Shown: positions 35,146-40,577 of the stretch, piece by piece
Position numbering within the stretch: position 1 is the stretch's first letter
Layout: the number at the start of each line of letters is the position of its first letter
Assembly (NCBI RefSeq): GCF_018502625.1
Contig: NZ_CP075566.1
Coordinates: 4,512,001-4,576,000, forward strand
Length of the DNA stretch: 64,000 nt
From: Pseudomonas hormoni
GTDB taxonomy: Bacteria > Pseudomonadota > Gammaproteobacteria > Pseudomonadales > Pseudomonadaceae
Direction: 5' to 3'
Position numbers and translations under genes: made by a program
The notes under the pieces: model-generated
Told to the model about the DNA's origin: nothing
Database searches by the model: none
Seen by the model: the letters and a program-made list of their open reading frames with translations, nothing else

Positions 35146-35157
35146 ACCATCTGTGGG

Positions 35158-35190
35158 AGATTCTATATTTGTTCCCCAAATATAGAATCT
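35158..35190. repeat. Perfect 14-bp AT-rich inverted repeat
   Basis: AGATTCTATATTTG, five bases, then the exact complement, 12 bases after the stop of the holC-associated gene. It marks the abrupt change from high-GC operon to AT-rich insert. It could end the pepA operon transcript, although no T-run follows, or be the end of a mobile element. Confidence 0.7.
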
Positions 35191-35430
35191 GGCTACCGAT
35201 ATTGGCATTCCTGATCGCGCACGATTGGGGGGATCTGCAAAATTCCGCTCGCCAATTCGCCTTTTTCCAATAGTCGACCGAAGTTGAGTATTGCCGCTTC
35301 ATCGGAAACCCCGATCCAGATGCCCCTAAAAAACCAGCGAAGAATCGTGCTCTCGTTAAATGCATCTTTCACCGTCGAATCGCTGTAGCCCGTATTGAGG
35401 CGGGCACTTCACCAAACTTGAAAGTTTCTT
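35191..35430 (-). pseudogene. Degenerate IS5-like transposase fragment
   Basis: One minus-strand frame through 35381 reads NTGYSDSTVKDAFNES, then TILRWFFRGIWIGVSDEAAI, then LNFGRLLEKGELASGIL before stops near 35190. The order SD-x-x-V-x-DA, R-F and the T/A-I-L-x-F-R-x-LLE block is that of the N-terminal region of IS5-family transposases (GLSD---E-ALYD---R-F ... PD-TTI--FR-LLE). A stop lies 5' of it and the catalytic DDE part is absent. It is a decayed fragment, and the exact IS group cannot be given. Confidence 0.55.
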
Positions 35431-35560
35431 TCAGAGCCCCTCCCTTGGAAAATATCCCCCTATACAACAATTCGAGTTAATAGTTTATCTCCCCACTCAA
35501 TTACCGCATGCGCCCACTAAATACTTTCAAAAAACGCTCAACAACCCACAAATAAATCTG

Positions 35561-35589
35561 TTGATTATTTAACTAAGCCTTCTTATATT
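35561..35589 (+). promoter_or_regulatory. Sigma-70 promoter of the tmRNA gene
   Basis: TTGATT at 35561-35566 and TATATT at 35584-35589 with a 17-base spacer, 20 bases before the mature tmRNA 5' end. A short leader for RNase P removal is expected. Confidence 0.75.
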
Positions 35590-35609
35590 TGCCCTGCCTT
35601 AGCGCACTT

Positions 35610-36015
35610 GGGGCCGATTAGGATTCGACGCCGGTAACAAAACTCTAGGGGCATGCCGAGTGGGTAACAGCACTCGTAAATCCACTGTTACATACTTAAT
35701 AGTTGCCAAACTTGCCAACTACGGTGCTCCTGCAATGAACGATTCCCTCTTCAAGGAAAAGATCTACGCTTAAGCACTTCTGGCCGCCTCGGCGCCAGCA
35801 ATCACCAGGGGATTTCTGTAAACCCGACCTGATTGTCATTTAGAACAGAATCGCCGCGTAGTGTGCTGTGGACGTAACGGCTAAATATTACACAGCTCGC
35901 CCCATGCGCCCTGCCCCTCGGGTGGCGACGGGTTAACTTAATTGAACGGGCTAAGCATGTAGAACCGACAGCGGAGTACTGGCGGACGGGGGTTCAAATC
36001 CCCCCGGCTCCACCA
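35610..36015 (+). ncRNA. ssrA: Transfer-messenger RNA with atypical tag frame
   Basis: A complete 406-nt tmRNA. GGGGCCG at the 5' end pairs with CGGCUCC before the encoded ACCA, including the G3-U wobble that identifies alanine acceptors. The T arm (GGGGGTTCAAATCCCCC) and D-like part (GATTAGGATTCGACGCCGG) are canonical. Pseudoknot segments are present, for example CGAGTG/CACTCG in PK1 and CTGG...CCAG in PK2. The resume codon GCC (35705-35707) follows the usual TAGTT. The tag frame runs 22 codons to TAA at 35771-35773, beginning AKLANYGAPA and ending KEKIYA. Ordinary gammaproteobacterial tags are about 10-13 residues and end ALAA. A ClpXP-type degron is therefore missing. Its own promoter precedes it and a strong terminator follows. 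Whether a normal ssrA exists elsewhere in the genome cannot be seen. Confidence 0.93.
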
Positions 36016-36017
36016 AA

Positions 36018-36113
36018 TGAAGTAAATACTTCACCCGTTTGCTGACGAAATGTCATTGGCAGCAAAACAGGTCATCTGGAGAGGTGACCGCCAGGTCGTC
36101 AGAAGTGACGACC
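36018..36113 (+). other. Cluster of hairpins downstream of tmRNA
   Basis: Three inverted repeats in a row: TGAAGTA-AA-TACTTCA (36018-36033), GGTCATC with GGTGACC (about 36080-36090, one G-U pair), and GGTCGTCA-GAAG-TGACGACC (36094-36113). They lie in the expected 3' trailer of the tmRNA precursor before its terminator. Confidence 0.6.
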
Positions 36114-36118
36114 GATTT

Positions 36119-36149
36119 AAAGCCATCCTCAGGGGTGGCTTTTTTTTGT
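36119..36149 (+). terminator. Intrinsic terminator after the tmRNA
   Basis: AAGCCATCC, short loop, GGGTGGCTT and a run of T's: a strong rho-independent terminator about 100 bases after the CCA end. Confidence 0.9.
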
Positions 36150-36499
36150 TTTTTTTTCCGCGCTCAAGAGACAACAGAAACCAGTAAGCCGATTTGATTG
36201 ATGATCTGCGCACGAGCGCACACATTAACCAACAGACATACTTATTCCCGATACGATTAACTATTTTTTTGGAGAGATGGTCTACCGTTTCGATCAAGCC
36301 TGAGGGCGAGACTCCGTAGTCCCATCTGGCGCCCGGAGCTATCTGCCTCCTTTCCAGTGTCGGATGTCAAAAGGACGTTCCGACAAATCCCGTCGCCCCG
36401 AATCACTCTGCGCCTGTCCGCCCCTGCTCGCCCTGCGCCCCATGCCCCGCTATACTCGTCGGCTTTTCCTGAATTAATGCCAATAGGGTCCCGCCGCGC
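36150..36499. other. Intergenic segment upstream of valS
   Basis: 350 bases, AT-rich at first and normal near valS. No reading frame with credible features. TATACT at 36451-36456 is a possible -10 element for valS. The rest is unexplained. Confidence 0.45.
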
Positions 36500-39511: not shown

Positions 39512-39982
39512 ATGAGTACTCTTCGACAAAAGTCGTTTCTTGCAACATTGATCTATAACAACAGGCCCTTAAGTTTTTTAGGCCTGATTTCAGCAGGAAA
39601 ATCGATAGGCCCGGTTTTATCGACGGAACCCTTTGGTCAAACCGCCACATTTTACTTTCGCTGCGAAGGTGACTACTACAACCTCTACGTCAGATCCGAA
39701 GGCCGGATTTTCGGACAAACACTGGTTGCAGACGGCTCGTTTTTCGGCACCAGCACAAAAGATGCAACGAGCTTCAATATATTGGATACCCATGGAAAAA
39801 TAGTTACTCTCGACGACCTTAAAACCAACAAAGAACAGATACGCCTACAAACCCGAGGGGGCTTAGAGTTAAAACGTAACGGCGATCTAATAGTCACGAC
39901 CACAGGCAAAGAAAAACTGACACTGGAACTGGATATCATGGGGCGTAACGAGCCTTATCTAGACCATCCGGATGAAATCTGA
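39512..39982 (+). CDS. Unknown protein, first of a tandem paralog pair
   Basis: 156 residues, no signal peptide, no membrane segment, no family recognised. Predicted mostly beta strands (TATFYFRCEGDYYNLYVRSEGRIFGQTLV ... TSFNILDTHGKIVTLDDL). It begins MSTLRQKSFLATL and ends PYLDHPDEI, and both ends are shared with the next gene. AAGG precedes the ATG. Codon use is AT-rich compared with valS and rlmF, suggesting acquisition. The repeated aromatic-rich strands might form a beta-trefoil or similar binding fold, but that is a guess. Confidence 0.75.
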   Translation: MSTLRQKSFLATLIYNNRPLSFLGLISAGKSIGPVLSTEPFGQTATFYFRCEGDYYNLYVRSEGRIFGQTLVADGSFFGTSTKDATSFNILDTHGKIVTLDDLKTNKEQIRLQTRGGLELKRNGDLIVTTTGKEKLTLELDIMGRNEPYLDHPDEI

Positions 39983-40097
39983 CAGTTTTTCAGGACGTTG
40001 AATTTCGGTCATTCGCCCCTTGTATCCGACCTCGAAAAACCTGGGCATCTCTAGCAAAAACCACATACCCCCCCAACACTGACAAAGGATTATCAGT

Positions 40098-40577
40098 ATG
40101 AGCACCAATCGACAGAAATCATTTCTCGCAACATTGGCCTTCCACGGAAAACCGGCGGCAATCATTTCACACTCCGGCAATACAGCCCCGGTTTGGGGCC
40201 AAGCCAACAATGGAGTGGCGGACGTATTATATTTTCGATGCGACGGAGACACCTATACGCTTTACATCCGAACTGAAGGCAAGCATTTCGGAAAAACAAT
40301 CGATCGAGTCGAAAACTTCTTTACGACCAGTACGGCAAGAAACACGACCACGTTCGACATCATCGGCGAAAACGGAAAAGTCATTACACTCGATCAACTC
40401 GATACAGATAAAGAAGTCATAGCCTTGCAAACCCGAAGTGGCGATTTATTGAAGACTGAGGTTGTCTGGACGGACGAACCTAAAAGAATCATGCTCAATG
40501 GCCAATCCCCCATCACTTTCGGCTTGAAAATTCTGGAGCGCAATGTGCCTTATCTCAGTCATCCGGACGAGGTCTGA
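40098..40577 (+). CDS. Unknown protein, second of a tandem paralog pair
   Basis: 159 residues, alignable end to end with the product at 39512. Shared features are MST-RQKSFLATL, YFRC-GD-Y-LY-R-EG--FG-T, FFTTST, a GK(V/I)(I/V)TLD-L motif, LQTR-G and the last residues PYL-HPDE-. By eye about two fifths of positions match. AAAGGA precedes the ATG, 115 bases after the first gene, with no terminator between, so they are likely co-transcribed. Function unknown. Their AT-rich composition contrasts with flanking core genes. Confidence 0.75.
   Translation: MSTNRQKSFLATLAFHGKPAAIISHSGNTAPVWGQANNGVADVLYFRCDGDTYTLYIRTEGKHFGKTIDRVENFFTTSTARNTTTFDIIGENGKVITLDQLDTDKEVIALQTRSGDLLKTEVVWTDEPKRIMLNGQSPITFGLKILERNVPYLSHPDEV

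Follow-up and report, generated by a model that had tools for sequence, protein, structure and literature searches.

A second tmRNA gene with a conserved 22-codon tag lacking the LAA end in one Pseudomonas clade

An old question about trans-translation is whether its benefit comes from freeing ribosomes or from destroying the tagged protein. The window analyzed here, a 64 kb stretch (positions 4,512,001-4,576,000) from a 6.48 Mb genome assembled as one contig, touches on this question through a single RNA gene. An earlier note on this DNA had described a complete tmRNA with an abnormal tag, and had suggested either a second tmRNA that gives rescued proteins a different fate or a decaying copy. 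Here we ask whether the gene is intact, what it encodes, how it is distributed, and what would become of the proteins that it tags.

The gene, its helices and its flanking signals

A complete one-piece tmRNA gene with encoded CCA is located at 35610-36015 on the forward strand, with exact bounds given by ARAGORN, which calls no other gene across the window. The gene, here termed ssrA2, matches Rfam RF00023 end to end (model positions 1-374, 179.3 bits, E 2.2e-71, gathering score 47 bits). This is also the only Rfam match in the window at gathering score, and three close copies are present in other genomes. PK4 aside, the gene is classed as a tmRNA of the one-piece form, in agreement with the earlier claim of a complete tmRNA.

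The acceptor stem with its G3-U pair, the T arm and the pseudoknot helices that had been read from the letters are present and paired. All seven acceptor pairs, including G3-U, are kept in the four ssrA2 copies, and across eight helices (acceptor, T arm, and two each in PK1, PK2 and PK3) 176 of 176 pair cells are standard. Pseudoknot 1 (35658-35691, forward strand; helices GAGTG/CACTC and GTAACAG/CTGTTAC), PK2 and PK3 are thus paired in every copy, while the T stem pairs G-C in either of two registers one base apart. PK4 was counted separately: PK4a as placed has 15 of 16 standard cells, with one broken pair in the carrier G300, and PK4b has 12 of 12 but was placed by a three-base motif, so that its placement is not trustworthy. 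One acceptor change is compensated, the pair C5-G68 (gene positions 5 and 398) being replaced by U5-A68 in the carrier G382. Compared with 30 ordinary genes (the 33 of the tmRNA tree described below minus three plasmid genes), pairs 53-62 and 257-286 have both bases exchanged and remain paired, each against 25 of the 30; pair 53-62, in PK1, is G-C in ssrA2 and T-A in those 25 genes. To judge from sequence, such a pairing pattern is what a working RNA would look like.

A promoter-like site, TTGATT-17-TATATT, lies upstream at 35561-35589 (forward strand). Both hexamers are identical in all four copies, and the stretch 35541-35609 is 83-96% identical among them, compared with 69-82% further upstream. 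Downstream, a terminator-like hairpin (AAAGCCATCC...GGGTGGCTTT) with a T run occupies 36119-36150 (hairpin 36119-36142, forward strand), again kept in all four. The scans found one promoter (0.8 expected by chance in the stretch) and one terminator (1.2 expected), so that the matches alone are at chance level, and it is conservation in the other copies that speaks for both as candidate signals. The promoter noted earlier is thus present and conserved; the "strong terminator" is present and kept, but at chance level as a match and about 100 bases past the CCA.

These 100 bases form a structured 3' trailer with four predicted hairpins (36016-36118, forward strand) that separates the CCA from the terminator. 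Trailer and terminator together (36016-36147) have a fold z-score of -5.4, with five predicted hairpins including the terminator, one of whose loops is GGAG, and are 88-95% identical among the four copies. By RNAalifold, no trailer pair has changed on both sides relative to the commonest pair, and one pair occurs as G-U, G-C and A-U. The ordinary ssrA of the same genome has, by eye, a terminator-like hairpin close behind its CCA.

The tag reading frame

ARAGORN reads the tag of ssrA2 from the resume codon GCC at 35705 as AKLANYGAPAMNDSLFKEKIYA, 22 codons followed by TAA (35705-35773, forward strand). The Rfam alignment places GCC 35705 under the consensus GCa at the resume position, the choice of consensus triplet in RF00023 being our own reading of the alignment. 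None of 13 start offsets around 35705 gives a product ending in -AA. The possibility that a covariance model would place the resume codon elsewhere and restore a normal LAA tag is thus not borne out, and the abnormal tag lacking the LAA end stands. Sequencing error in 35705-35773 is most unlikely, because three further genomes share the same 22-codon frame; the presence of ssrA2 at the same place in four genomes likewise speaks strongly against an assembly error.

The four tags share the start AKLANYGAPA, followed by -M-NDS-L-FKEK-I-YA in the window genome, -V-NDS-F-FKEK-L-YA in G300 and G382, and -M-NDS-S-FKEK-I-YA in the fourth carrier, G211. In all four the 22-codon frame ends in -(I/L)YA, and the ClpXP-degron feature "tag ends (L)AA" is absent. 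The -NDE- stretch of the normal tmRNA tag is its SspB side and contains residues touching SspB. The presence of an SspB motif in the normal tag is also described in part of a published account (PMC8138137). The AANDE-type contact stretch is absent at the start of the second tag, which has AKLANYG in place of the AND-type start, with KLA where ordinary tags have a stretch beginning ND or NN, and (I/L)YA in place of the -AA end. By its sequence, then, the second tag would offer neither the -NDE- stretch nor the Ala-Ala end for ClpX. It retains a C-terminal Ala, and some ClpX binding may remain.

Ordinary tags provide the comparison. We read 60 of them, which are the highest-scoring loci and therefore a non-random choice among roughly 390 ordinary genes (the carriers' own four, 54 others of the genus and two of another genus in the family). 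All 60 begin with AND and end with AA; 59 have 12-14 residues and one has 19. The description of the second tag as doubled in length is therefore right in direction but somewhat too strong, the 22 codons being about 1.6 to 1.8 times the usual length. The 19-residue tag, ANDETYGVEASNDQMAFAA in genome G340 (L035), is the longest ordinary tag read and has the -AA end. Four plasmid or phage tmRNA loci, outside the 60, also end in LAA (ANNDNFDAPVALAA, ANDNAFEGARLAA, and ANDDNYALAA twice).

How the second tag arose from an ordinary one is less clear than had been proposed. The earlier note saw an ordinary tag that had lost its end and stop and had been extended. The closest ordinary gene (L011, 82% identical) reads TAC GGT GCT CAA CTA GCT GCG TAA GCA, of which ssrA2 keeps TAC GGT GCT C... 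and ...GCT TAA GCA. The alignment there is ambiguous, and a replacement inside the tag, with the final Ala codon and stop retained, may fit as well as a loss of the end, so that the proposal is doubtful in detail. A consensus fold of the four copies predicts a helix GGUGCU/AGCACU (35723-35778, forward strand; six pairs, none varying) within which the remainder of the tag lies as far as the stop codon, and RNA folding of this kind may hold some of the tag bases.

Distribution, conservation and entry of the gene

In the window genome the ordinary ssrA lies at 69,002-69,398 on the reverse strand (201.5 bits, tag ANDENYGQEFSLAA), and a single smpB lies at 79,262-79,690; the genome search thus upheld the suggestion of a second tmRNA beside the ordinary one. 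Five further matches to the tmRNA model score 17-28 bits, under the cut-off. An ordinary ssrA and one smpB are present in each of the four ssrA2 carriers, which are the genomes that the smpB search covered. In each carrier ssrA2 scores below the ordinary gene (176-179 bits against 200-202).

In an even sample of 398 genus genomes, drawn from a larger group and scored for the two best candidates per genome, ssrA2 is found in four: the window genome, G300 (98% identical), G211 (97%; Pseudomonas migulae NBRC 103157) and G382 (96%). The next-best match is an ordinary ssrA at 82%. Of the 51 genomes with two matches, 47 are non-carriers; under stricter filters, 46 of these have exactly one tmRNA match at E <= 1e-15, and one has none. 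By the covariance-model route two full tmRNAs are therefore present in four of 398 genomes, a count that would not include a strongly diverged second copy. In a pattern scan of genome contigs, from which close relatives of the window genome may be omitted, the P. migulae NBRC 103157 record alone matched. The same pattern matched twice in a draw of 392 relatives that did not include G300 and G382 (the window genome and G211). A further genus draw of 397 genomes around G382 gave three matches, all of them genomes of the first sample, and no new carrier.

All four copies lie at the same chromosomal place, and the gene is much better conserved than its surroundings. Pairwise identity among the four is 95.6-97.5% for the gene and 92.8-97.1% for the tag, compared with 69-82% for the 5' flank and 62-83% for the 3' flank (the 3' pairs with G300 contain 146-150 gap positions). 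Among gap-free columns, the 5' flank has 167 variable ones out of 390 and the 3' flank 47 out of 104, against 6 of 95 in the gene before the tag and 12 of 242 after it. Within the tag, none of the 30 columns of codons 1-10 varies, and six of 39 vary in codons 11-22 plus the stop. The difference from the 5' flank is significant for the whole tag (6/69, Fisher p 1e-8) and for its second half alone (p 9e-4). The suggestion of a decaying copy is therefore not supported, since the gene is conserved and its flanks are not. Four of the six variable positions in the tag are nonsynonymous and two synonymous; by themselves these positions would indicate no constraint at the amino-acid level, and peptide-level selection on the tag is weakly tested with four copies that all belong to one clade.

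ssrA2 lies between a 128-aa ORF (no Pfam match), downstream of aminopeptidase and holC genes, and valS, as assigned by Pfam. No prophage or island was seen by eye among the ORFs of 25-46 kb. Just downstream of valS, at 39512-40577, are two adjoining small proteins (156 and 159 aa) without Pfam match, whose sequences appear similar by eye. The gap between the small ORF and valS measures 1208-1375 bases in the four carriers; in 26 non-carriers it is 131-291 bases in 25, and 877 bases in one that has another insert. A block of about 1.1-1.2 kb (approximately 35150-36400, flanked by valS and the small ORF that follows holC) is thus absent from all 26 non-carrier loci, none of which has a tmRNA there by ARAGORN. 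A valS tree of the 30 best matches rather than the whole genus (1,981 bases; FastTree with midpoint rooting and without support values) groups the four carriers in a single clade, and their sister group of six (G348, G336, G046, G241, G178 and G135) lacks ssrA2 at the locus.

Within the block, 159 bases (35232-35390) align at 75% identity with a portion of an IS5-family transposase CDS (L087); matches to this stretch also occur in three further plasmid records. It is probably a remnant: its forward frames are interrupted by stops, and the two reverse-strand ORFs over it have no Pfam match. The mobile-element origin put forward earlier is partly supported, by the block and the IS5-like stretch but not by any Pfam match in those ORFs. 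Because the carriers form a clade on valS, the gap is short in non-carriers and the block contains an IS5-like stretch, ssrA2 appears to have entered once, perhaps with a mobile element, and to have been inherited within one clade.

The source of ssrA2 was sought more widely. A recent copy of the host ssrA was rejected, as ssrA2 is only 80% identical to it and sits on a long separate stem in a tree of 37 tmRNAs (FastTree, midpoint root, no support values). The nearest ordinary relative in the genus draw is in G041 (82%), and the best match outside the genus, in an order draw of 293 genomes of which eight belong to the genus, is 79%. No phage source was found among 50,697 phage records: 18 match, and the sole long match (74%) is a tmRNA with the tag ANDDNYALAA, the others covering 6-11% of the query. 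No plasmid source was found either (19 records match, best long match 74%), and a plasmid search with the 3' flank of ssrA2 gave no match. Three pattern scans of viral contigs returned no matches each.

Two side observations concern ordinary tmRNAs. The ordinary tag of the window genome, ANDENYGQEFSLAA (L001), differs in type from ANDETYGEYALAA in the other three carriers (L040, L041, L043); with the carriers one clade on valS, exchange of ssrA alleles among them is possible. In genome G024 a tmRNA match spans 637 bases (L124, 778-1414) where ARAGORN finds no gene; about 240 bases seem to be inserted, and in this interval the tmRNA model alone, and no intron family, reached its gathering score.

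Proposed role and relation to known systems

We consider it fairly probable that ssrA2 is a second working tmRNA that shares SmpB with the ordinary one and writes a tag poorly recognized by ClpXP, in one Pseudomonas clade including P. migulae. We infer from the sequence that it would be expressed, charged and used for tagging, with a changed fate for the product. Since the parts for these steps are kept, ssrA2 would be aminoacylated with alanine by virtue of the G3-U pair in its acceptor stem, would use the cell's single SmpB to enter stalled ribosomes, and would let the ribosome resume at GCC (35705), end at TAA and be freed as by ordinary tmRNA. Nascent chains would then receive (A)AKLANYGAPA-(M/V)-NDS-(L/F/S)-FKEK-(I/L)-YA. 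Because both the -NDE- stretch and the Ala-Ala end are lost, such chains would be expected to escape fast SspB/ClpXP destruction, and would be longer-lived or taken by another protease. The poor ClpXP recognition claimed for this tag is supported by what part of a published study (PMC7652416) implies for an -IYA end.

SspB is present and single in all ten carriers and sisters, the four carriers included. SspB and the ordinary tag thus coexist with the -(I/L)YA tag, and the two tags would have unequal calls on ClpXP. A more specific form of this proposal, which we put forward tentatively, is two-fate trans-translation, in which one SmpB would serve both a "degrade" tag (ANDENYGQEFSLAA) and a conserved non-degron 22-residue tag, their mix being set by the two promoters.

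A related possibility, counted as a sub-case of the favored explanation and itself conceivable rather than probable, is that the second tag is a degron for another route, such as Lon, FtsH, a non-SspB adaptor, or a periplasmic tail-specific protease acting on exported chains. There are precedents: the Mycoplasma tag ends in AFA, which part of one account attributes to the absence of ClpXP, ClpAP and Tsp (PMC3985003), and the M. florum tag, which differs in length and sequence, is read by Lon according to part of another (PMC8138137). Prc, as described in part of a further study (PMC5686067), takes nonpolar C termini, and -IYA and -LYA are nonpolar. Lon itself is not specially indicated, because the carriers have no extra Lon (five Lon_C matches in each of the four; among the six sisters, five matches in five and six in one) and the Lon C-degron class, in the relevant part of its description, ends in His rather than Ala (PMC11986505). 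Nor do the counts of SspB, ArfA and Lon_C in the ten carriers and sisters point to a dedicated extra partner in carriers.

It is also possible, though we think it unlikely, that ssrA2 is a back-up or dosage copy, kept for freeing ribosomes, whose tag end hardly matters and has drifted to a non-degron. A spare gene elsewhere could be useful, as ssrA is described, in parts of two papers, as a frequent integration target (PMC11915505, PMC4383910), and back-up rescue systems are common according to part of a third (PMC3985003). However, free drift fits poorly with a second tag half more conserved than the flank (6/39 against 167/390) and with a tag length and type of ending that are the same in all four copies; moreover, an ArfA-family match is already present in all ten carriers and sisters. 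A regulator that competes for SmpB, or that carries the structured trailer as a separate small RNA, is quite improbable. The tRNA-like-domain-only form of phage DS6A is reported, in parts of two papers, to inhibit normal tmRNA (PMC4131195, PMC11915505), and the trailer is conserved and strongly folded, but a resume codon, an open frame and a stop would be superfluous in a competitor, and all are kept in the four copies. Least credible, and very improbable, is a decaying copy or assembly error: the unusual tag, the adjoining mobile-element-like stretch and the Rfam score below that of the ordinary gene could be read in this way, but the gene is at the same place in four genomes, is conserved relative to its flanks, and has intact helices save one PK4 pair in G300.

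ssrA2 resembles ordinary Pseudomonas tmRNA in architecture, TAGTT-GCC resume context, G3-U acceptor, encoded CCA and a presumably shared SmpB, but differs in its 22-codon tag without AND- or -AA, its other locus, its long structured trailer and its restriction to one clade. Some genomes are described as having a second or third ssrA allele, in certain cases on a plasmid (Hudson et al. 2014, PMC4131195); like ssrA2 these are extra ssrA genes in one genome, and the relevant part of that paper mentions no unusual tag. The tmRNAs of the Pseudomonas megaplasmids pMPPla107 and pBASL58 differ from ssrA2 in having LAA tags and their own adjoining smpB. In these records (L083, 3002-3931; L085, 3001-4075) tmRNA and smpB lie side by side, with the tags ANNDNFDAPVALAA and ANDNAFEGARLAA, and form a plasmid-borne trans-translation set.

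The Mycoplasma and Mesoplasma florum tag is longer than the normal tag. Like the second tag it has another length, lacks the LAA end and is not made for ClpXP (in parts of PMC3985003 and PMC8138137), but the Mycoplasma-type tag serves cells without ClpXP, whereas ssrA2 carriers write the ordinary tag too and have SspB. Phage-borne tmRNAs and the DS6A form (described in part of PMC4131195) are, like ssrA2, extra tmRNA genes from outside, whereas ssrA2 is complete and chromosomal.

Two tmRNAs in a Hydrogenivirga assembly are described, in part of a paper, as possible contamination (PMC4227106). The tmRNA collection of 2025 is said, in part of its description, to hold 97,179 sequences with tags as short as 2 aa (PMC11915505), and the first part of the tmRNA Website paper makes no mention of double tags (PMC4383926). 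In the open-licence literature we found no report of the second tag, the sole peptide-word match being an unrelated Bub1 paper, and no case of two tmRNAs with differently acting tags among the matches listed. Second ssrA alleles are already in print, and within the open-licence literature none with a conserved non-degron tag was found; a gene of the ssrA2 type may well be present in sequence collections without remark.

According to part of PMC3985003, Mycoplasma, with a tag ending in AFA, is the exception to an otherwise highly conserved ALAA end. A conserved tag with another ending, in cells that retain SspB and also write an ordinary tag, would add to Mycoplasma a second exception of a different kind, and further exceptions may exist in tag collections. 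If the two-fate reading is true, chains carrying the second tag would be preserved, passed to another protease or directed to another location. A strain found in nature whose two tmRNAs have the rescue function in common but write different tags would make the question of rescue versus destruction testable.
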